Assembly (NCBI RefSeq): GCF_024979315.1
Contig: NZ_JANLCK010000001.1
Coordinates: 124,001 to 188,000, forward strand
Direction of reading: 5' to 3'
Length of the DNA stretch: 64,000 nucleotides
DNA from: Herbiconiux oxytropis
Lineage (GTDB): Bacteria; Actinomycetota; Actinomycetes; Actinomycetales; Microbacteriaceae
Shown one piece after another: positions 19,130 to 63,276 of this stretch. The position numbers were made by a program, and so were the translations under genes. The first letter of the stretch is position 1; each line of letters begins with the position of its first letter. The notes beneath the pieces were generated by a model. That model was given only the letters and a program-made list of their open reading frames with translations, did not search any database and was not told the origin of the DNA.

Positions 19130-19759
19130 ATGTCAAGCGTGACCGACAAGAAGACGCGGATGTCCTCCGACGAGCGGCGCGAGCTCGTGCTCGACGCCGC
19201 CACGACCGTCTTCGGCGAGGCCGGCTACCACGGCGCGAGCACGGATGCCGTGGCGAGGGCCGCCGGGGTCAGCCAGCCCTACGTGGTGCGCATGTTCGGC
19301 ACGAAGCAGCAGCTCTTCCTCGACGTCCTGGGGCGGGCCCTCGACCAGCTCATGGAGGCGTTCCGCGCCGCGATCGCCGGAGACCCCTCCGTGCCGCTCG
19401 GCCGACGCCTGGGTCTGGCGTACTTCGAGCTCACCGCGAACCGCGGCATCCTGCTCTGCCTCATGCACGCCTTCGCCCTGGGTGCCGAGCCCGTCATCGG
19501 TCCGTCAGCGCGCTGCGGCTTCATGGACGTCTATCGCCTGCTCCGGGACGAGGGCGGCATGTCAGCCGACGAGGCATCGTCCTTCCTCGCCGGTGGCATG
19601 CTCTCGAACGTCATCCTGGGCGTGCGGATGCTCGACGACTACGACGAGGAGCCGGCCGTGCGCGAGCTCATGCTGACGGTGTTCCCCGAGAAGCTCGAGA
19701 TCATCCGTGCGACGCACCCTCCGCGTCAGCCCGATCCGGTCAGTGGGCGACGGCGATGA
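19130..19759 (+). CDS. TetR/AcrR-family transcriptional regulator
   Basis: The 209-residue protein has an N-terminal helix-turn-helix (DAATTVFGEAGYHGASTDAV then AGVSQPYVVRMFGTKQQLFL, residues 23-65) and a helical ligand domain. It probably represses the divergent MFS exporter. No Shine-Dalgarno precedes the ATG. A second Met ten residues in (19160) is an alternative start. Its 3' end overlaps the convergent glgP gene by 20 nt. Confidence 0.9.
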   Translation: MSSVTDKKTRMSSDERRELVLDAATTVFGEAGYHGASTDAVARAAGVSQPYVVRMFGTKQQLFLDVLGRALDQLMEAFRAAIAGDPSVPLGRRLGLAYFELTANRGILLCLMHAFALGAEPVIGPSARCGFMDVYRLLRDEGGMSADEASSFLAGGMLSNVILGVRMLDDYDEEPAVRELMLTVFPEKLEIIRATHPPRQPDPVSGRRR

Positions 19760-22334
19760 GGCCGAGCTCCGCCGGCGACGCGAGATGGGCGTGTTTCGGC
19801 ACGACGCGCACGGTGTAGCCGAACGAGCCCGACCTCGCCAGGGCGACCGTGCCGGAGTAGACCCGCTCGGTCGAGCCGGCGCCGGGATCCCCGTTGGCAC
19901 GCGCATCCGAGCCCGCATCGTGCGGCGTCGACAGCTCCACCGTGGCCGCCTCCGAGATGTCGTCGCCGTGCACCGCGTGCCCGTAGACCACCTCCACCGC
20001 GACATCCGCGGGCGACAGCGCTCCGAGCTGGATGTGCGCGCGCACGTGCAGCTCGTCGCCCACCTGCGGGGTGTCGTCTAGTCCGCCGGACTCCACGTGC
20101 ACCACCGCGACCCCGCCCCAGGCGTCCTCGATCCGGTGCTTCCACTCCGCCAGCCCGCGGGCGGCCTCGTGGTCGTCGACGGTCATCGCCCGCTCGGCCG
20201 CGGCCGCCGGCACGTAGAGCCGCTGCACGTACTCGCGCACCATCCGCTCGGCGCTCAGCTCGGGCGAGAGGGTCGCGAGGGTGTGCCGGATCGACTGCAT
20301 CCAGTGGCTCGGGATGCCGTCGGCGTCGCGATCGTAGAACCGCGGCGCCACCTGGTTCTCGAGCAGGTCGTAGAGCGCCTCGGCCTCGAGGGCGTCGCGC
20401 TCGGCGGCGTCTCCCGCCGAGTCGGCGGTGGGGATGGCCCAGCCGTTCTCGCCGTCGAAGTACTCGTTCCACCAGCCGTCGAGGATGGAGAGGTTGAGCC
20501 CGCCGTTCAGCGCGGCCTTCATGCCGGAGGTGCCGCAGGCCTCGAGCGGCCGCAGCGGGTTGTTGAGCCACACGTCGGTGCCGGGGTAGAGCAGCTGCGC
20601 CATGCCGATGTCGTAGTTCGGCAGGAACACGATCCGGTGCCGCACCTCGGGGTCGGAGGCGAAGTGCACGAGCTTCTGGATGAGCCGCTTGCCCTCCTCA
20701 TCGGCCGGATGCGACTTGCCGGCCACCACGAACTGGATCGGCCGCTCGGGGTTCAGCAGGATCGACTTCAGGCGCTCGGGGTCGTGCAGCATGAGGGTGA
20801 GTCGCTTGTAGGTGGGCACCCGCCGGGCGAACCCGATGGTGAGCACCGTCGGGTCGAGCAGTCCCTGGTACCAGGCCGGCGGGATGGAGTCGGGGTTCTG
20901 CCGGCGCCACGCCTCGGTGACCCGGCGACGCGCGTCGTGCACGAGCTGGCGCCGCATGTCGCCGCGCACGGCCCAGAGCTCGGCGTCGGTCACCGCTTCC
21001 GAGGTCCAGTCGGCCGTGGTCGTGTGGCCGGTGCCGAGCTTCGTGCGGGCGAGCTCCTGCAGCAGCGGATCGGTCCAGGTGGGCGCGTGCACACCGTTCG
21101 TGACCGAGGTGATGGGCACATCGGCGCGGTCGAAGCCTGGCCACAGCCCGGAGAACATGCCCCGGCTCACCTCGCCGTGCAGCACCGAGACGCCGTTGGC
21201 GCGCTGGGCGAGACGGAGCCCCATCACGGCCATGTTGAACATGTCGGGCGATCCGCCCTCGTAGTCCTCCGCGCCGAGCGCGAGCACGTCGCCGACGTCG
21301 AGCCCCGGCAGCATGTCGGTCGAGAAGTAGCGCTGCACGAGCGAGCGGTCGAAGCGGTCGATGCCCGCAGGCACGGGAGTGTGGGTCGTGAACACCGTGC
21401 CGGCGCGCACCACCTCGAGGGCCTCGTCGAACGACAGCCCTCCGCCGATGAGGTGCGAGATGCGCTCGAGGCCGAGGAATCCGGCGTGGCCTTCGTTGGT
21501 GTGGAAGACCTCGGGCATGGGCTGGTCGGTGAGCTCGGAGACGACCTCGAGCGCGCGCACGCCGCCCACGCCGAGCAGCAGCTCCTGCAGCAGGCGATGC
21601 TCCCCGCCCCCGCCGTAGAGCCGATCGGTGACGCTCCGCAGATCGTCGTCGTTGTCGGGGATGTCGGTGTCGAGCATGAGCAGGCGCACGCGGCCCACCT
21701 GCGCCTGCCAGATGCGGGCGTAGAGCGCGCGGTCGTCGGGGAGCGCCAGCACGATCTGGGCGGGTGTGCCGTCGGCCAGCCGCAGAACCGACAGCGGCAG
21801 GCCGTCGGGGTCGAGCACGGGGTAGCTCTCCTCCTGCCAGCCGTCGCGCGAGATGGCCTGGGAGAAGTAGCCGGAGCGGTAGAACAGCCCCACGCCGATG
21901 ATCGGCACCCCGAGATCCGAGGCCGCCTTGAGGTGGTCGCCGGCGAGGATGCCGAGCCCGCCGGAGTACTGCGGCAGCGCGGCGGCGATGCCGAACTCGG
22001 GTGAGAAGTAGCCGATGGTGCGGGGGCGCACGCCCTCGAGCCCCTGGTACCAGCGCGGTGCCTCGAGGTAGGCGTGCAGGTCGTCGCGGAGGCTGTTCGC
22101 CCACGCCACGAAGCCCGGGTCGTCGGCGAGCTGGGCGAGGCGTTCGGGGCGGACGGCCCCCAGCAGCGCGACCGGATCACCGAGGGTCGAGCGCCAGTCC
22201 TCCGGCGAGATGTGGGCGAAGATCTGCCGCGTGGGCTCGTGCCAGGCCCAGCGCAGATTGGCGGCGAGCTCGCCGAGCGCCGACAGCGACTCGGGCAGAA
22301 CGGAACGGACGGTGAACCTGCGGATCGCCTTCAC
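19740..22334 (-). CDS. glgP: Alpha-glucan phosphorylase (GT35, short actinobacterial type)
   Basis: The 864-residue PLP-dependent enzyme releases glucose 1-phosphate from the non-reducing ends of alpha-glucan. The N-terminal DUF3417 segment (LGELAANLRWAWHEPTRQIF, about residues 18-37) marks this subtype. The PLP Lys is in ACGTSGMKAALNGG, and FHTNEGHAGFLGLERI is also conserved. The GTG start has AAGGAG ten nt upstream. It diverges from glgE. A C-terminal beta domain of about 110 residues follows the phosphorylase body, as in other actinobacterial members. Confidence 0.95.
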   Translation of the reverse strand: MKAIRRFTVRSVLPESLSALGELAANLRWAWHEPTRQIFAHISPEDWRSTLGDPVALLGAVRPERLAQLADDPGFVAWANSLRDDLHAYLEAPRWYQGLEGVRPRTIGYFSPEFGIAAALPQYSGGLGILAGDHLKAASDLGVPIIGVGLFYRSGYFSQAISRDGWQEESYPVLDPDGLPLSVLRLADGTPAQIVLALPDDRALYARIWQAQVGRVRLLMLDTDIPDNDDDLRSVTDRLYGGGGEHRLLQELLLGVGGVRALEVVSELTDQPMPEVFHTNEGHAGFLGLERISHLIGGGLSFDEALEVVRAGTVFTTHTPVPAGIDRFDRSLVQRYFSTDMLPGLDVGDVLALGAEDYEGGSPDMFNMAVMGLRLAQRANGVSVLHGEVSRGMFSGLWPGFDRADVPITSVTNGVHAPTWTDPLLQELARTKLGTGHTTTADWTSEAVTDAELWAVRGDMRRQLVHDARRRVTEAWRRQNPDSIPPAWYQGLLDPTVLTIGFARRVPTYKRLTLMLHDPERLKSILLNPERPIQFVVAGKSHPADEEGKRLIQKLVHFASDPEVRHRIVFLPNYDIGMAQLLYPGTDVWLNNPLRPLEACGTSGMKAALNGGLNLSILDGWWNEYFDGENGWAIPTADSAGDAAERDALEAEALYDLLENQVAPRFYDRDADGIPSHWMQSIRHTLATLSPELSAERMVREYVQRLYVPAAAAERAMTVDDHEAARGLAEWKHRIEDAWGGVAVVHVESGGLDDTPQVGDELHVRAHIQLGALSPADVAVEVVYGHAVHGDDISEAATVELSTPHDAGSDARANGDPGAGSTERVYSGTVALARSGSFGYTVRVVPKHAHLASPAELGLIAVAH

Positions 22335-22414
22335 GGGGGTGGTCTCCTTCGGGGGTGGGCTCCGACCAACCCCGTCAGCCTAGGGCAGTCGGGTTGCGGC
22401 CTCGTGAACACGGG

Positions 22415-22442
22415 TTGCAGGCCTCTCCTTTGTCGGTAGGGT
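22415..22442 (+). promoter_or_regulatory. Promoter of leaderless glgE
   Basis: TTGCAG (22415-22420), a 16-nt spacer and TAGGGT (22437-22442) precede the GTG start by seven nt. This is the best-formed sigma-70-type promoter in the window with no leader, so transcription probably starts at the GTG. Confidence 0.6.
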
Positions 22443-22449
22443 CTGAAGC

Positions 22450-24606
22450 GTGGCAGCTACGCGCAAGAAACCAGCGGCATCGTCGGCGGCGCCGGCCGAG
22501 AAGACCGCCCCCGTCAAGACTCCGGCCAAAAGCCCGACGAGCGCCGCGGCGACCACCGCGTCCGCACCCCCCACGACGTTCCAGCCCTCGATCGGCCGCA
22601 TCCCGGTGCTCGGGGTCTTCCCTCAGGTCGAGGGAGGCCGCTGGCCCGCCAAGGGCTTCGTGGGTGAGGTGATCCCGTTCGGCGCCCTGGTGTTCCGCGA
22701 GGGCCACGACGCGGTCGGCGCGCACCTCGAGCTCGAAGCGCCCGACGGCACCGTGATCGACCGTCCGCTCACCCGCACCCACAGCTGGGACGACGAGTGG
22801 CGGGGCCTCGCGCAGGTCACGAGCGAGGGCGACTGGCGCTTCCGCATCCGCTCCTACTCCGACGACTACGCCACCTGGGAGCACAACGCCGGCATCAAGA
22901 TCGCCGCGGGCGTCGACGTCGAGCTCATGTTCGCCCTCGGCGCCGAGCTCTTCGCGCGCCTGGCCGCCGAGAGCTCGCGGCCCGAGGCCGACCGGGCGCT
23001 CTTCGCCGAGGTCGCCGCCACGCTCGGCGCCACCGCAGGGCCGCAGACCGAGCGGCTCGCCTCCGCCTACCAGAAGTCTGTGACGGATGCCCTGGCCGTG
23101 CGCCCGGCCGAGAGCCTCGTCACGCACTCCGCGTGGCATCCGCTGCGCGTGGAGCGCACCCGCGCGGGCTCGGGCGCCTGGTACGAGTTCTTCCCCCGCT
23201 CGATCGGTGCGGAGCAGGACGCCGACGGCACCTGGCGGAGCGGCACCTTCCGCACCGCCGCCGAACGCCTCCCGGCCGTGGCCGCCATGGGATTCGACGT
23301 GCTCTACCTGCCGCCCATCCACCCCATCGGCGAGGCGTTCCGCAAGGGCCGCAACAACACCCTCGACCCGCAGCCGGGCGATCCGGGCTCGCCCTGGGCG
23401 ATCGGCGGCGCGGCCGGCGGTCACGACGCCGTGCACCCGGATCTCGGCACGCTCGAGGACTTCGACCGCTTCGTGGCCGAGGCCAAGGAGGCCGGGCTCG
23501 AGATCGCGCTCGACTTCGCCCTGCAGGCCTCGCCCGACCATCCGTGGGTGAAAGAGCACCCGGAGTGGTTCACGACCCTCCCGGACGGCACGATCGCCTA
23601 CGCGGAGAACCCGCCGAAGAAGTACCAGGACATCTACCCGATCAACTTCGACAACGATCCCGCCGGGATCCGCGCCGAGGCGCTCCGCCTGCTGGAGTTC
23701 TGGATCGCTCGAGGCGTGTCGATCTTCCGTGTCGACAATCCGCACACGAAGCCGCTCGACTTCTGGGAGTGGGTCATCCACGAGGTCAACGCCGCGCATC
23801 CGGAGGTCGTCTTCCTCGCCGAGGCCTTCACCCGGCCGGCCGCCATGCAGGGCCTCGCGAAGGTGGGCTTCCAGCAGTCGTACACCTACTTCACCTGGCG
23901 GAACACGAAGGAGGAGATCGAGGAGTTCTTCACCTCGATCTCCGAGGAGACCGACGCGTTCTTCCGGCCCAACCTGTTCGTCAACACCCCCGACATCCTC
24001 ACGGAGTACCTGCAGTTCGGCGGCACCGCCGCCTACCGCATCCGGGCTGTGCTTGCGGCCACCGGTGCTCCCACCTGGGGCGTCTACTCGGGCTACGAGC
24101 TGATCGAGAACGTCGCGCGCCCCGGCGCCGACGAGAACCTCGACAACGAGAAGTACGAGTACAAGCCGCGCGACTTCGTGGCGGCCGAGGCGGCAGGGCG
24201 CTCGATCGCGGAGGACATCACGCGACTGAACGCCATCCGCCGCGTGCACCCGGCGCTCGGGCAGCTGCGGAACCTCCGGTTCCACGGCAGCGATGACGAC
24301 TCGATCGTGGTCTACTCCAAGCACCTCGACGGCGAGTTCACCCCTGACGGCGTCTCCGACACGGTGATCGTGGTCGTGAACGTCGACCCGCACTCCGTGC
24401 GCGAGACCACCGTGCACCTCGACCTCACCGAGTTCGGGCTCCAGCCGGGCGCCGTCTTCGGCGTGACCGACCTTCTGAGCGGCAATCACTGGGAGTGGTC
24501 CGATCACAACTACGTGCGGCTGGATGCCTTCACGCAGCCCGCGCACATCCTGCACGTCAGTCCGCCGGTCGACGACGCGCATCCCGAGACGGAACGAGAC
24601 TCCTGA
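22450..24606 (+). CDS. glgE: Alpha-1,4-glucan:maltose-1-phosphate maltosyltransferase
   Basis: The 718-residue GH13_3 enzyme lengthens alpha-1,4-glucan chains with maltose units from maltose 1-phosphate. A 45-residue Ala/Lys/Pro-rich N-terminus is followed by a beta domain, a dimer-forming helical domain and the barrel. Catalytic residues are the nucleophile Asp near 429 in [16 protein letters not shown] and Glu near 458 in [14 protein letters not shown]. The stop overlaps the glgB start (TGATG), so the two are coupled. The usual donors of substrate, TreS and Pep2, are not neighbours here. Confidence 0.96.
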
Positions 24607-26825
24607 TGACGCTGCCCATCCCCTCCGCAGCCCCCGCCCTCCCCGAGATCCCCGTCGAGACGCTCGACGCCGTCGCGGCCGGCAGCTATTACGACCCGCA
24701 CTCGGTGCTCGGCCAGCACCTTGTCGAGCTGCCGGGTGTCAGCGACCCGGTCACGGTCATCCGCTCGCTGCGGCCGCTCGCCCGCGAGGTGACCGCGGTG
24801 CTCGCGAACGGCGCCCGCGTCGATCTCGCCCACCTGCACGCCGGCATCTGGCAGGGCCACACCCTCACGGGGCTCTCGGACTACACGATCGAGGCGCACT
24901 ACGACGACGACAGCACCTGGACCGCCGACGACCCGTACCGCTTCTCCCCCACGCTCGGCGAGCTCGACCTGCACCTGATCGGCGAGGGCAGGCACGAGAC
25001 GCTCTGGGAGGTGCTCGGCGCCCGCGTCGAGGAGAAGTGGGGCGTCGACGCCGGTTTCCCCGGAACCGCGTTCGCCGTGTGGGCGCCGCACGCCAGGGCC
25101 GTCCGTGTGATCGGCGACTTCAACGGCTGGGACGGTGTGCGCCACGCCATGCGGAGCCTCGGCGGCACCGGGGTCTGGGAGATCTTCATCCCTGAGCTCG
25201 CGGCCGGAGCCAACTACAAGTACGAGATCCTCACCCAGCACGGCCAGTGGGTGAGCCGGGCCGACCCGATGGCCCGCGGCACCGAGGTGCCCCCGCTCAC
25301 GGCCTCACGGATCGACAACACGAACTACGCCTGGAACGACGGCGAGTGGATGACGAAGCGCGCCGAGACGGATCCGCACACGCAGCCGATGAGCGTCTAC
25401 GAGATGCACGTGGGCTCCTGGAAGCTCGGACTCGACTACCGCACCCTCGCCGACGAGCTCATCCCCTACCTGCAGCACCTCGGTTTCACGCACGTGGAGT
25501 TCATGCCGCTCGCCGAGCACCCGTTCGGCGGCTCGTGGGGCTACCAGGTCACCTCCTACTACGCACCCTCGTCGCGCTTCGGCTCGCCCGACGACCTGCG
25601 CTACCTGATCGATCGGCTGCACCAGGCCGGCATCGGCGTGCTCGTCGACTGGGTGCCCGGGCACTTCCCCAAGGACGAGTGGGCGCTCGCCCGCTTCGAC
25701 GGTGAGCCCCTCTACGAGCACTCGGACCCTCGTCGCGGCGAGCAGCCCGACTGGGGAACTCTCGTGTTCGACTTCGGCAACAGCCAGGTACGCAACTTCC
25801 TCGTGGCGAACGCCCTCTACTGGTTCGACGAGTTCCACATCGACGGTCTGCGCGTCGACGCGGTCGCCAGCATGCTCTACCTCGACTACAGCCGGAAAGA
25901 CGGCGAGTGGCTGCCCAACCAGTACGGCGGGCGCGAGAACCTCGAGGCCATCAGCATGCTGCAGGAGGTCAACGCCACGGCCTACCGCAAGTACCCCGGC
26001 ATCGTGATGATCGCCGAGGAGTCGACCTCGTGGCCTGGCGTCACGCACGCCACGAACCGCGGCGGGCTCGGCTTCGGCATGAAATGGAACATGGGCTGGA
26101 TGCACGACACCCTCGAGTACATCGAGGAGGATCCCGTGAACCGCAGCTACCACCACGGCAAGATCACCTTCTCGTTCATCTACGCCTTCAGCGAGAACTT
26201 CATGCTGCCGATCTCGCACGACGAGGTCGTGCACGGCAAGGGCTCGCTGCTCAGCAAGATGCCGGGCGACCACTGGCAGAAGCTCGCGAACCTGCGCGCC
26301 TACCTGGGCTTCATGTGGGCGCACCCCGGCAAGCAGCTGCTGTTCATGGGCCAGGAATTCGGTCAGCCCTCCGAGTGGAGCGAGGAGCGCGGACTCGACT
26401 GGTGGATCCTCGACCAGCCGGTGCACCAGCAGCTGCACGCGCTCGTGGGGCACCTCAACCGCGTCTACCGGGAGAACCCCGCCCTCTGGGCGCTCGACAA
26501 CGAGCCCGCGGGCTTCGAGTGGATCGACGGCGGCTCGGCGTCGCAGAACCTCGTGTCGTTCCTCCGCTGGGACTCCGACGGCAACCCGATCGCCGTGCTG
26601 ATGAACTTCTCCGGCGCCCCCGTGGGCCCGTACCGCGTGGGCCTGCCCTTCGGCGGCCGCTGGGACGAGCTCGTCAACACCGACGCCGTCGAGTACGGCG
26701 GCTCGGGCGTCGGCAACTACGGCTCGGTCGAGGCGGAGTACGTGCCCTGGTCGGGGAGGCCGGCGTCGGTGGAACTGACGTTGCCGCCGCTGGCGGCTTT
26801 GTTCCTGAAGCCCTATCGGGCTTGA
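24606..26825 (+). CDS. glgB: 1,4-alpha-glucan branching enzyme
   Basis: The 739-residue GH13_9 enzyme makes alpha-1,6 branches in the glucan built by GlgE. Two N-terminal beta modules, including a CBM48 ([20 protein letters not shown] near 155-175), precede the barrel. Catalytic Asp lies near 418 in [13 protein letters not shown], Glu near 471 in [13 protein letters not shown] and Asp in [14 protein letters not shown]. The chosen ATG overlaps the glgE stop by one nt. It ends 18 nt before a long inverted-repeat element. Confidence 0.97.
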
Positions 26826-26843
26826 GGGAGAGATTATTTATCT

Positions 26844-27116
26844 GCGCCGGTCCCCGCCCGGCGCAGGCGGACATGCTTCGGTGAGGTCGCTCACGCGGCC
26901 TCGCCGGCGCCCTGGGTCGTCTAAGAACGGCCAGCGGCTTTCAGCACCGTGCAGAAGTTCCGGTGAATGACGTGGGGGATGTAGTCGTCGCCTGCCAGGA
27001 ATGACGATGCGGGTGATGCGAACGCGACCGGCCCTACTCGACGACCCAGGGTGACGGCGAGGCCGCGACAGCGACCTCACCGGAACATGTCGCGCGCGCC
27101 GGGCGGGGACCGGCGC
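26844..27116. repeat. MITE-like element: 273 bp with 76-77-bp inverted ends
   Basis: This fills most of the 338-nt gap between convergent glgB and the CnoX-like gene. The left arm 26844-26920 and right arm 27041-27116 are inverted copies. The outermost 21 nt are perfect and about seven changes are spread over the rest. Further perfect blocks are GTGAGGTCGC and CCTGGGTCGT. The 120-nt centre has no gene with a start codon. On the minus strand an open frame without a start ends at TAG (26923-26921) and reads AGDDYIPHVIHRNFC. I see no clear target-site duplication. It may be a non-autonomous mobile element or a structured terminator/RNA. Confidence 0.8.
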
Positions 27117-27163
27117 GCCAACTAGCACAGCCGTCCCACCCACCGACTAGTTCCGCCGTGCTG

Positions 27164-28144
27164 TCAATACAGCAGCCCCGCCAGCCTGCGCCGCGCCCCC
27201 GCCACCCGCGGGTCATCCGTGCCCACGACCTCGAAGAGCTCCAGCAGGCGGGTGCGGACGGTGTTCTTGCCGTCGGGGTCCTGTTTCGGGAAGAGGTCGA
27301 GCAGGCGGCCGAAGGCGTCGTCGATGTGGCCGCCCGAGAGGTCGAGGTCGGCCACTAGGAGCTGCGCGTCGAGGTCGTCGGGCGCCTCGGCGGCAGCGGC
27401 GCGGATCTCGTCGAGCGACTTGTCCTGCAGGCGCGCGAGCAGCTGCACCTGGGCGAGGCCGGCGACCGCGAGCAGGTCGCGCGGGTTCTGCGCGATGGCG
27501 GTCTGGTATTCGGCGATGGCGAGGGCGTAGTCGCCCTTCTCGATCGCTTCGTAGGCCTCCGCGTGGTGCGGCGGCAGCGGCTCCTCCACGGGCTCGCCCG
27601 CGTCCGCGACGGATGCGTCGGCACCGGCCACCGAGACCGTCCCGGTGACGCCGTTCTGGGCCGCGAGCTGCAGCACCTGCTCGAGCACGGCGCGCAGCTC
27701 CTCCTCGGGGTAGGTGCCCTGGAAGAGCGAAAGCGGCCGGCCGCCCACGAGAGCGGCGACCGTGGGAACCGACTGGGCCTGGAACGCTTGGGCGAGCTGC
27801 GGGTTCTCCTGCGCCTCGACGCCCACGAGCACGAGCCTGCCGGCGTACTCCGTGACGAGCTTCACCAGCAGTGCGGTGAGCTCCTTGCTCGCCTCGGCCC
27901 AGTCGGCCTTGAGGTCGACGATCACGGGGACCGTGTTCGAGAGCTCGATGTAGCCCGTGAAGTTCGCGTCGGTGCCCTCGAGCACGAGCGAGGGCAGGGT
28001 GCCCACAGGCGCTCCCTCGGCTCCCGGCGCCGGAACCCCGGGTGTAGCAGCAGCGGCGCCCGCAGGGGCGTTCGCCCGGTTCACGAGCGACGAGAGGTCG
28101 ACGGCACCGCGGAGGTTGCCGACGGAGGGCGGGGGCATGGTCAC
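27164..28144 (-). CDS. CnoX/YbbN-like thioredoxin-fold TPR protein lacking the CxxC site
   Basis: The 326-residue protein has an N-terminal low-complexity stretch (1-50), a thioredoxin fold (about 55-165) and a TPR-like C-terminal half (about 205-326, AYEAIEKGDYALAIAEYQTA). Where thioredoxin has WCxxC it has DWAEAS, so redox activity is unlikely. E. coli CnoX is a chaperone-holdase linked to GroEL; a similar cytosolic chaperone role is inferred. The GTG start overlaps the upstream gene's TGA by 4 nt; an ATG two codons downstream (28138) is possible. It is coupled to the large membrane protein gene. Confidence 0.85.
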   Translation of the reverse strand: MTMPPPSVGNLRGAVDLSSLVNRANAPAGAAAATPGVPAPGAEGAPVGTLPSLVLEGTDANFTGYIELSNTVPVIVDLKADWAEASKELTALLVKLVTEYAGRLVLVGVEAQENPQLAQAFQAQSVPTVAALVGGRPLSLFQGTYPEEELRAVLEQVLQLAAQNGVTGTVSVAGADASVADAGEPVEEPLPPHHAEAYEAIEKGDYALAIAEYQTAIAQNPRDLLAVAGLAQVQLLARLQDKSLDEIRAAAAEAPDDLDAQLLVADLDLSGGHIDDAFGRLLDLFPKQDPDGKNTVRTRLLELFEVVGTDDPRVAGARRRLAGLLY

Positions 28145-61349: not shown

Positions 61350-62483
61350 ATGGAGATCAGGTTCACCGAGTCGGAACGCTCCACTCTCGGCATCGAGTGG
61401 GAAGTGGCTCTGGTGGAGCAGAGCTCCGGCGATCTCGTCTCGGTCGCGGGTGACGTGCTCGAGGCGCTGCAGGGTGCCGGCGGTTCCGATCACCCCCAGA
61501 TCACGGGCGAGCTGCTCCTCAACACGGTCGAGCTGGTCACCCGCGTGCACCACCGGGTGGCGGATGCTGTCGACGACCTGCAGGCGCAGCTCGCCGAGGT
61601 GCGTGCCATCACGGATCCGCTCGACGTCGAGCTCATGTGCGCGGGATCTCATCCGTTCGGCCAGTGGTTCGAGCAGACCGTCACCGACAAGGAGCGCTAC
61701 CACAAGCTCATCGACCGCACCCAGTGGTGGGGTCGCAACATGATGATCTGGGGCATCCACGTGCACGTCGGCATCGATGACCGCGAGAAGGCGCTGCCGA
61801 TCGTCAACTCCCTGCTCAACTACTACCCGCACCTGCAGGCCCTCAGCGCGTCGAGCCCGTTCTGGGGCGGTGTCAACACGGGGTACGCGAGCAACCGGGC
61901 GCTCATGTTCCAGCAGCTGCCCACCGCGGGCCTGCCGTATCAGTTCGGCAGCTGGGCGAACTACGAGGAGTACGTCGACGACCTCATCCGCACGGGGGTG
62001 ATCAGCGACCACACCGAGGTGCGCTGGGACATCCGGCCGAGCCCGCAGTGGGGCACGGTGGAGATGCGGGCGTGCGACGGGCTGTCGAGCCCCGAGGAGA
62101 TCGGCGCGGTCGCCGCGCTCATCCAGTGCCTCGTCGACGACATGTCCCAGCGTCTCGACGACGGCGAAGAGCTGCCCACCATGCAGCCCTGGTTCGTGCG
62201 CGAGAACAAGTGGCGGGCGGCGCGCTACGGAATGGAGGCCGAGATCATCCTCAACGCCGCCGGCGACGAGCAGCTGGTCACGGATGCGGTGCGCGGCGAA
62301 CTCGAACGCCTCGCCCCGGTCGCCGAGCGGCTCGGCTGCGCGGCGGAGCTCGACCAGGTGAACCTCATCCTCGACCACGGCGCCAGCTACCAGCGCCAGC
62401 TCCGCGTGGCGGAGCAGAACGGCGGGAGCCTGCGGGCGGTGGTGGCCTCGCTCACCAAAGAGCTCCGGCACGGGGTGTCTTAG
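61350..62483 (+). CDS. ybdK: YbdK-type carboxylate-amine ligase (GCS2 family)
   Basis: The 377-residue ATP-grasp-like enzyme is a weak glutamate-cysteine ligase relative. Family features are STLGIEWEVALVE at the start, MCAGSHPFGQW, GIHVHVGIDDREKALPIVN and WDIRPSPQWGTVEMRACDG. In actinobacteria several paralogues exist, some linked to mycothiol- or ergothioneine-related compounds, so the substrate is open. GGGAAGG lies six to eight nt before the ATG. It stands alone between rpsP and the oxidoreductase gene. Confidence 0.9.
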   Translation: MEIRFTESERSTLGIEWEVALVEQSSGDLVSVAGDVLEALQGAGGSDHPQITGELLLNTVELVTRVHHRVADAVDDLQAQLAEVRAITDPLDVELMCAGSHPFGQWFEQTVTDKERYHKLIDRTQWWGRNMMIWGIHVHVGIDDREKALPIVNSLLNYYPHLQALSASSPFWGGVNTGYASNRALMFQQLPTAGLPYQFGSWANYEEYVDDLIRTGVISDHTEVRWDIRPSPQWGTVEMRACDGLSSPEEIGAVAALIQCLVDDMSQRLDDGEELPTMQPWFVRENKWRAARYGMEAEIILNAAGDEQLVTDAVRGELERLAPVAERLGCAAELDQVNLILDHGASYQRQLRVAEQNGGSLRAVVASLTKELRHGVS

Positions 62484-62547
62484 CTGCTGAGCCGGTCGTG
62501 CTGCGCGCGGCCGGCTCAGGTCGCGCGCAGCACGACCCGCACAGCAG

Positions 62548-63276
62548 CTAGAGAGAGTCCCTCCACGCCAACAGCTCCTTCGCTCCCGAGAGGTCGAGGT
62601 CGGGGCCGGAGATGCCGAGGGTGAAGAGGGTGACGCCCGCCTCGAGCTGACGATCGAGCAGGGCGCGGTCGCTCGTCTGCGAGCTGATCGTGCCGGTCGA
62701 GACCTCGATCTCGGAGGGGTCGCGCCCCACCTTGTCACACCACTCGCGGAGCACGACGAGCTTGCGCTCGAGGGTCTCCACGTCGGAAAAGGAGTGCCAG
62801 ATGTCGGCGTGCTCGGCCACGATGCGGAGGGTCTTCTTCTCGCCGCCGCCGCCGAGCGCATCGAGTCGCTGACCGGCGGTGCCGAACTCGTAGCCGTACT
62901 CGTCGTAGTCGCGCTCGAACCAGCCCGATCCGATGCCGAAGATCAGCCGTCCCTCGTCGCCGGGGTTCTTGGCGCTGATGTGGTCGACTGTGCGGGCCAT
63001 GTCGGCAAGGAGCTCGGGGTTGCGGTAGCTGTTGCAGGTCACGAGCGGACCGAACTGGATCCGGGAGGTCTGCTCGGCCCAGGCGGCGAGCATCGTCCAG
63101 CCCTCGAAGTGCAGGCCGTCGGGCTCGCCGGAGAGCGGGTAGAAGTGGTCCCAGTTGAAGGCGATGTCGACGCCCAGGTCTTCGAGGGCGGCGAGGGTGT
63201 CGCGGATGGCACGGTATTCGGCGTGCTGGGGTGCGATCTGCACGCCGATGCGCACAGGGCGGGAAGGAGTCGTCAT
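62548..63276 (-). CDS. LLM-class F420-dependent oxidoreductase, short form with a missing segment
   Basis: The protein has 242 residues; relatives have roughly 265-290. TMLAAWAEQTSRIQFGPLVT and NPELLADMARTVDHIS are typical of the luciferase-like barrel. Between FGTAGQRLDAL and GGGGEKKTLRIVAEHADIWH relatives carry about 25 more residues, usually ending in IPVLIG; these are absent without a frame break. The cofactor is likely F420, not shown here. The ATG is six nt after TATGCT, suggesting a leaderless message. Its activity is doubtful if the barrel strand is truly lost. Confidence 0.8.
   Translation of the reverse strand: MTTPSRPVRIGVQIAPQHAEYRAIRDTLAALEDLGVDIAFNWDHFYPLSGEPDGLHFEGWTMLAAWAEQTSRIQFGPLVTCNSYRNPELLADMARTVDHISAKNPGDEGRLIFGIGSGWFERDYDEYGYEFGTAGQRLDALGGGGEKKTLRIVAEHADIWHSFSDVETLERKLVVLREWCDKVGRDPSEIEVSTGTISSQTSDRALLDRQLEAGVTLFTLGISGPDLDLSGAKELLAWRDSL

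Follow-up and report, generated by a model that had tools for sequence, protein, structure and literature searches.

The inverted repeat between glgB and the CnoX-like gene

The window analyzed here, a stretch of 64,000 nucleotides of the Herbiconiux oxytropis genome, carries a glycogen cluster (positions 19740–26825) composed of a phosphorylase gene on the minus strand and the GlgE and GlgB genes on the plus strand. Its last member, glgB (24495–26825, plus strand; GlgB_N, CBM_48 and alpha-amylase domains, start codon uncertain), ends at a stop codon at position 26825 and faces a convergent CnoX-like gene (27164–28144, minus strand) with thioredoxin and TPR domains. Situated between the two is a 273-nt inverted repeat (26844–27116). 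The outer arms (26844–26869 and 27091–27116) are 26 nt long and 92% complementary, and the inner arms (26870–26921 and 27040–27091) are 52 nt long, 88% complementary and spaced by 118 nt. A first-pass annotation of this DNA had counted about seven changes between the arms; the percentages imply a slightly higher number, approximately eight mismatches. The inverted arms it had described are real, and so is the perfect match of their outermost 21 nt, for which 26844–26864 on the plus strand and 27096–27116 on the minus strand are both exact matches to one pattern. The 273-nt element folds at −204.2 kcal/mol, compared with −130.5 kcal/mol (sd 5.2) in 200 shuffled sequences (z −14.1), and because none of the shuffles is as low, the inverted repeat is not a product of chance.

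Each arm is a diverged copy of a Herbiconiux repeat unit of ~140 nt. The left unit (26830–26940, arm orientation minus, gene-sense strand plus) lies at the glgB 3' end and matches the R1 covariance model of the unit with 86.9 bits (E 2.7e-19); the right unit (27022–27128, arm orientation plus, gene-sense strand minus) lies at the 3' end of the CnoX-like gene and matches with 101 bits (E 9.4e-23). Both copies lack one of the three hairpins of the unit, hairpin C, as judged on the left from its length (111 nt against 142 model positions) together with its sequence, and as evident on the right from 107 nt against the same 142 positions. On the glgB-sense strand, hairpin B, GCGCCGGTCCCCGCCCGGCGC, occupies 26844–26864 (plus strand; exact pattern match and fold), followed by hairpin A at 26879–26906 (plus strand; fold). 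On the CnoX-sense strand, hairpin A was placed at 27051–27086 (minus strand) from the fold and by hand from the alignment of units called A1, and hairpin B at 27096–27116 (minus strand) from the exact pattern match, being absent from the arm's lowest-energy fold. As isolated gene-sense RNA, the arm on the glgB side yields both hairpin B and hairpin A (z −2.66), and the arm on the CnoX side yields hairpin A, with the strands of its hairpin B paired elsewhere and a z of only −1.54. The unremarkable folding of this right arm on its own counts against an RNA function.

The centre between the arms (26922–27039, no strand assigned) is gene-free, as had been noted at first reading. A coding role for it was rejected: a mechanical 101-aa open reading frame on the minus strand (26838–27143) spans nearly the whole element, no credible gene lies in the centre, and in the nearest relative this stretch shows little conservation and a 10-nt gap. 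A scan for sites combining a hairpin with a U-tract found no U-tract terminator on either strand of the element, its centre included, which sets it apart from a canonical intrinsic terminator. Some other unit pairs do show A/T tracts at their centre.

A repeat family of the genus Herbiconiux

The genome of origin contains 32 matches to the element in approximately 18 places, many of them to one arm only. All 15 same-genus relatives searched have at least one match to the window element, and four of 24 other genomes have one weak match each. The R1 model, counted among the 150 best candidates per genome and with a palindromic place possibly counted on both strands, yields 35 matches in the genome of origin and 91, 74, 47, 42, 35, 30, 28, 26, 24, 16, 15, 7, 1, 1 and 0 in the 15 other Herbiconiux genomes. 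Thus, the arms belong to a dispersed family with R1 matches in 15 of 16 genus genomes, and the search of the genome and its relatives proposed in the first-pass annotation returned many copies rather than one. At the family level, where stricter filters were applied than in the 16-genome genus search, 11 of 299 genomes have an R1 match: six of seven Herbiconiux genomes and five genomes outside the genus, the latter with one weak match each. In a species-genome collection, 51 of the 52 contig stretches with the core pattern belong to Herbiconiux, either by name or through two differently named assemblies (3FA27C10 and B27) matched to G010 and G007 of the genus set; the sole match on a contig from outside the genus (L219, a gammaproteobacterial MAG) was put down to chance, as it lacks hairpins nearby and resembles coding sequence on visual inspection. 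Neither the phage nor the plasmid collection contained a match, and carriage as phage or plasmid cargo was rejected on these grounds. An Rfam scan of five unit-bearing loci returned a neighbouring tRNA as the sole match above threshold. Two further candidates were treated as chance: MIR840 over the L060 palindrome (37.2 bits against a gathering score of 150) and Thr_leader in L300 (29.1 against 55).

In each of the four segments tested, copies from one genome resemble each other more than copies from different genomes do. In hairpin C the within-genome and between-genome values are 0.793 and 0.713, respectively, a difference that none of 1000 label shuffles matched. Therefore, copies spread or are homogenised inside species.

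Three covarying hairpins on the gene-sense strand

Seen from the adjoining gene, a full unit follows the stop codon in the order hairpin C, hairpin B, hairpin A and a tail, CCUGGGUCGUCGA. Hairpin C is recognisable in 72 units, 61 of which remained after a redundancy filter. Five of these (long-loop and some other rows) were dropped by hand to give the 56 units of A1, and two more to give the 54 units of a second alignment, A2, on the gene-sense strand. Because the loci were chosen among the best matches to the element in the window, the sample leans to its type; neither alignment includes the two arms of that element itself. In A1, 93.9% of cells are paired, and 19 of 35 pairs have changes on both sides in at least one unit. 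The covariation score is 0.301, compared with 0.072 for shuffled alignments, and pairing falls to 28–42% when the partners are slid by 1–3 columns. In A2, 91.7% of pairs are standard and covariation is 0.276 (0.077 shuffled); one of five covariation measures is weaker on this strand, with 18 of 500 shuffles as high.

The mismatches tell the two strands apart. Hairpins A and C contain fixed C·A mismatches on the A1 strand, in 56 and 55 of the 56 units at two positions and in 45 of 56 at a third. The same positions read as U·G on the opposite, gene-sense strand, two of them in 54 of 54 units. The gene-sense strand has 197 G·U and 27 A·C pairs, compared with 28 G·U, 204 A·C and 83.5% standard pairs on the other strand. 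The strand predicted by wobble pairs is also the strand read from the gene, so that the evidence from pairing and that from gene orientation concur. The RNA reading is at odds with a tandem mismatch of hairpin A, which most units show as U·C on the gene-sense strand. Three partial or full units stand in tandem in one orientation at L146 (G003, 1479–1711) and L175 (G012, 1499–1780), unlike the usual inverted pairs. At one locus compared between G000 (L057) and G008 (L285/L074), hairpins A and B are conserved and hairpin C differs strongly, which gives the impression of an exchange of hairpin C.

Position relative to genes

The units fall into 105 clusters: 78 single units, 21 inverted pairs of the ‘−+’ type found in the window and six others. 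Genes were called by a simple codon-bias script of our own. The orientation counts include many loci that are orthologous between species and thus represent non-independent events: a gene runs into the outer end of 65 of the 77 single units with both neighbours called (for one of the 78, no gene was called on one side), the same holds for 36 of the 42 arms in ‘−+’ pairs and, for all arms with callable neighbours, the figure is 101 of 119, the six other multi-unit clusters standing outside this total. Gene pairs flanking a unit are convergent in 58 cases, tandem in 40 and divergent in five, as compared to three, 54 and 25, respectively, for gene pairs without a unit taken from the same loci. 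By a simple scan script of our own, a U-tract terminator accompanies 18 of the 101 gene ends facing a unit (83 have none) and three of 43 unit-free gene ends at the same loci (40 have none), the latter regions being shorter and mostly tandem. As the U-tract is slightly commoner at the ends that face a unit, a general replacement of terminators by units cannot be claimed.

Alleles between species

The glgB and CnoX-like genes are found together in 14 of the 16 genomes; in G007 a contig end interrupts the site, and in G010 no glgB was found next to the CnoX-like gene. The site is occupied in several distinct ways: by a pair of units in G000, G008 and G015; by a single unit in G005, G014, G012, G002, G003, G007 and, weakly, G011; and by a plain terminator-like hairpin with A/T flanks in G001, G009 and G013; G006, G004 and G010 have no unit. 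In the glgB–CnoX gaps of G004, G003, G011, G012 and G002 (L099, L100, L101, L105 and L106, respectively), glgB is followed by another type of long hairpin, whose loop resembles CCGCCTAGGGGTTGAGCGGAGCTCAAAGGCGG and which may represent a second family of structured 3'UTR repeats.

Two close species, G000 and G008, allow a site-by-site comparison. For 14 of 16 G000 sites, both flanks lie within 2 kb in G008; one of the remaining sites is split by ~12 kb and one lacks a flank. A detectable unit is kept in G008 at 11 of the 14 comparable sites and is lacking at two that are filled in G000, a pair at L071 and a single unit at L058; at L072, both species align and the sequence in G008 is too diverged for the profile. 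The window itself carries the scar of a second unit pair (62480–62560, no strand assigned), seen in an alignment with a whole pair in G008 (L075) and in two weak R1 matches (26.9 and 34.8 bits): the ends of two hairpins C remain, and ~300 nt between them are lost relative to G008. In the unit-poor genomes G001 and G013, a unit is present in one of 20 orthologous stretches, where G000 has a pair; on visual inspection, the other stretches include some with terminator-like hairpins and some with no obvious hairpin.

These comparisons bear on the reading preferred in the first-pass annotation, a non-autonomous, MITE-like transposon that has terminal inverted repeats of 77 bp and relies on a transposase acting in trans. 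Dispersed copies in the genome and the genus, copy numbers between 0 and 91 in genus genomes (among the 150 best candidates each), the greater likeness of copies within genomes and the two sites filled in G000 and empty in G008 are all as expected of a mobile element, and to this extent the proposal holds. However, the repeating unit is one arm rather than 273 bp, as 78 of 105 clusters hold one arm only, arm orientation is fixed to gene ends and each arm contains covarying hairpins of its own, so that the picture of a mobile whole bounded by terminal inverted repeats falls. The search for empty-site alleles, likewise suggested at first reading, recovered filled and unfilled sites between species, but the five alleles aligned, all from one species pair in which absent alleles are few, showed neither a target duplication nor a clean empty site. 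We therefore regard a MITE as unlikely.

Comparison with known systems

According to PMC3733652, REP and BIME elements are dispersed intergenic palindromes, often arranged as inverted pairs, mostly downstream of genes and plausibly transcribed. The Herbiconiux unit resembles this description (PMC3733652) in being multi-copy, intergenic and gene-downstream (101 of 119 arms), in forming inverted dimers (21 of 105 clusters) and in lying between convergent or tandem genes. In a strict REP element, a tyrosine transposase (RAYT) would mobilise the repeat in single-stranded form, the hairpins would be the sites of this enzyme and the 3'UTR position would be an insertion preference. REP-like hairpins, inverted pairs and placement downstream of genes agree with such an origin, as does a CGTC stretch that 40 of 54 aligned units carry in their tail, 3' of hairpin A (GTAG is found in 12 of 54, and neither tag precedes hairpin C). 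Against it, the transposase search, which covered the Y1 family (PF01797) in the 16 genus genomes, found Y1 in one of them, G001, which has no unit, and in none of the 15 genomes with unit matches, unlike the GTAG type of REP; a RAYT-driven REP was rejected on this basis. Moreover, the unit has three hairpins in ~140 nt, as opposed to the 20–40 bp palindromes of REP and BIME elements (PMC3733652), and the CGTC stretch is separated from the stem base. Given the missing Y1 family, the much greater length of the unit and the CGTC stretch outside the tag position, we do not assign the Herbiconiux unit to the GTAG and CGTC super-families, and spread as a strict REP is decidedly unlikely, although CGTC repeats, according to PMC3733652, are likewise without a dedicated transposase. 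That the repeats encode many copies of an independent small RNA or trans-acting regulator, as the structured sequence with its invariant stretches might suggest, is very improbable given the close, oriented placement after stop codons, the absence of Rfam hits (up to E 1) from the window and, as weak evidence in this bacterial group, the lack of a sigma-70-like promoter in 26700–27300.

BOX, ERIC and similar elements are modular, lineage-restricted, RNA-foldable intergenic repeats of about 100–150 nt. By this general description, the Herbiconiux unit resembles them; it differs in that one of its hairpin modules is shared with other genera. We rate the repeat as a new family of a known kind, that of dispersed, RNA-foldable intergenic repeats. 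The family itself appears to be undescribed: no paper on it was found in the open-licence literature, which does not prove its absence from print.

A probable hairpin cluster at mRNA 3' ends

The element at the glgB/CnoX-like site is best explained, with a probability of about 0.68, as two back-to-back copies of a Herbiconiux-wide repeat placed just past the stop codons, which would act as a REP/BIME-like 3'UTR hairpin cluster in transcription termination or mRNA 3'-end protection. The units form a family whose orientation is set by the genes and whose covarying hairpins pair better as gene-sense RNA, and other hairpins take their place at this site in some species. As the units sit after stop codons and can fold into clusters of RNA hairpins, termination or protection is likelier than a jumping gene. 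At first reading, a structured RNA or a bidirectional terminator had been offered as the alternative to a transposon for this space between convergent genes, and covariation, gene orientation and gene-sense pairing all fit that alternative better; overall, that annotation is partly supported.

Of the two copies, the left one would serve glgB and the right one the convergent CnoX-like gene, each at its 3' end. Once transcribed, the hairpin cluster may stop transcription without a U-tract, and two units meeting back to back would terminate it in both directions. In addition or instead, the cluster may block 3'-to-5' RNases, as proposed for REP/BIME elements. PMC8355165 reports that hairpin clusters near stop codons can terminate transcription with no need for a U trail, and the Herbiconiux hairpins are similarly clustered close to the stop codon. 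That source treats hairpins site by site in 13 genomes (PMC8355165); the Herbiconiux unit differs in being one homologous family present at many gene ends. If this reading is right, Herbiconiux has a family of structured 3'UTR repeats that is spread genus-wide, covaries strongly and is without a match in Rfam; for this group, we found little in print on such repeats. The same gene ends, carrying a unit, a plain terminator or another hairpin depending on the species, would then provide a natural test of the function of REP-like repeats.

Hairpin B outside Herbiconiux

The stem and loop (UCCYYGC) of hairpin B are near-invariant. Its exact 21-nt sequence occurs in 21 of 299 genomes of the family, in eight of 85 genera including Herbiconiux, and the reversed pattern has no match; hairpin B is thus common to seven genera besides Herbiconiux. 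Its 19-nt core is present in nine of 396 genomes of the order, namely, the genome of origin and eight others, with one or two copies each. Outside Herbiconiux, 25 distinct places were inspected, 21 in the family and four beyond it. At 10 of the 21 family places, in four genera, hairpin B starts 7–12 positions past a same-strand stop codon; the remaining 11 lie after tRNA genes or further off, by an opposite-strand gene or without a called gene, and the 7–12-position spacing is found at none of the four places outside the family. The spacing at the 10 places agrees with a role at mRNA 3' ends and, if that role is right, the occurrence of hairpin B in several genera would point to a common recognition step. 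It is conceivable, if rather unlikely, that hairpin B is the recognition module of a trans-acting factor (an RNA-binding protein, or one linked to the ribosome or to an RNase) that forms mRNA 3' ends, and that it has spread as a portable 3'-end cassette. At L300, L308 and L309, hairpin B follows tRNA genes, and at L296, L298, L299, L300 and L297, all from other genera, it is arranged in tandem copies with periods of ~34 to 103 nt, the range over all the places inspected being ~34 to 124 nt.
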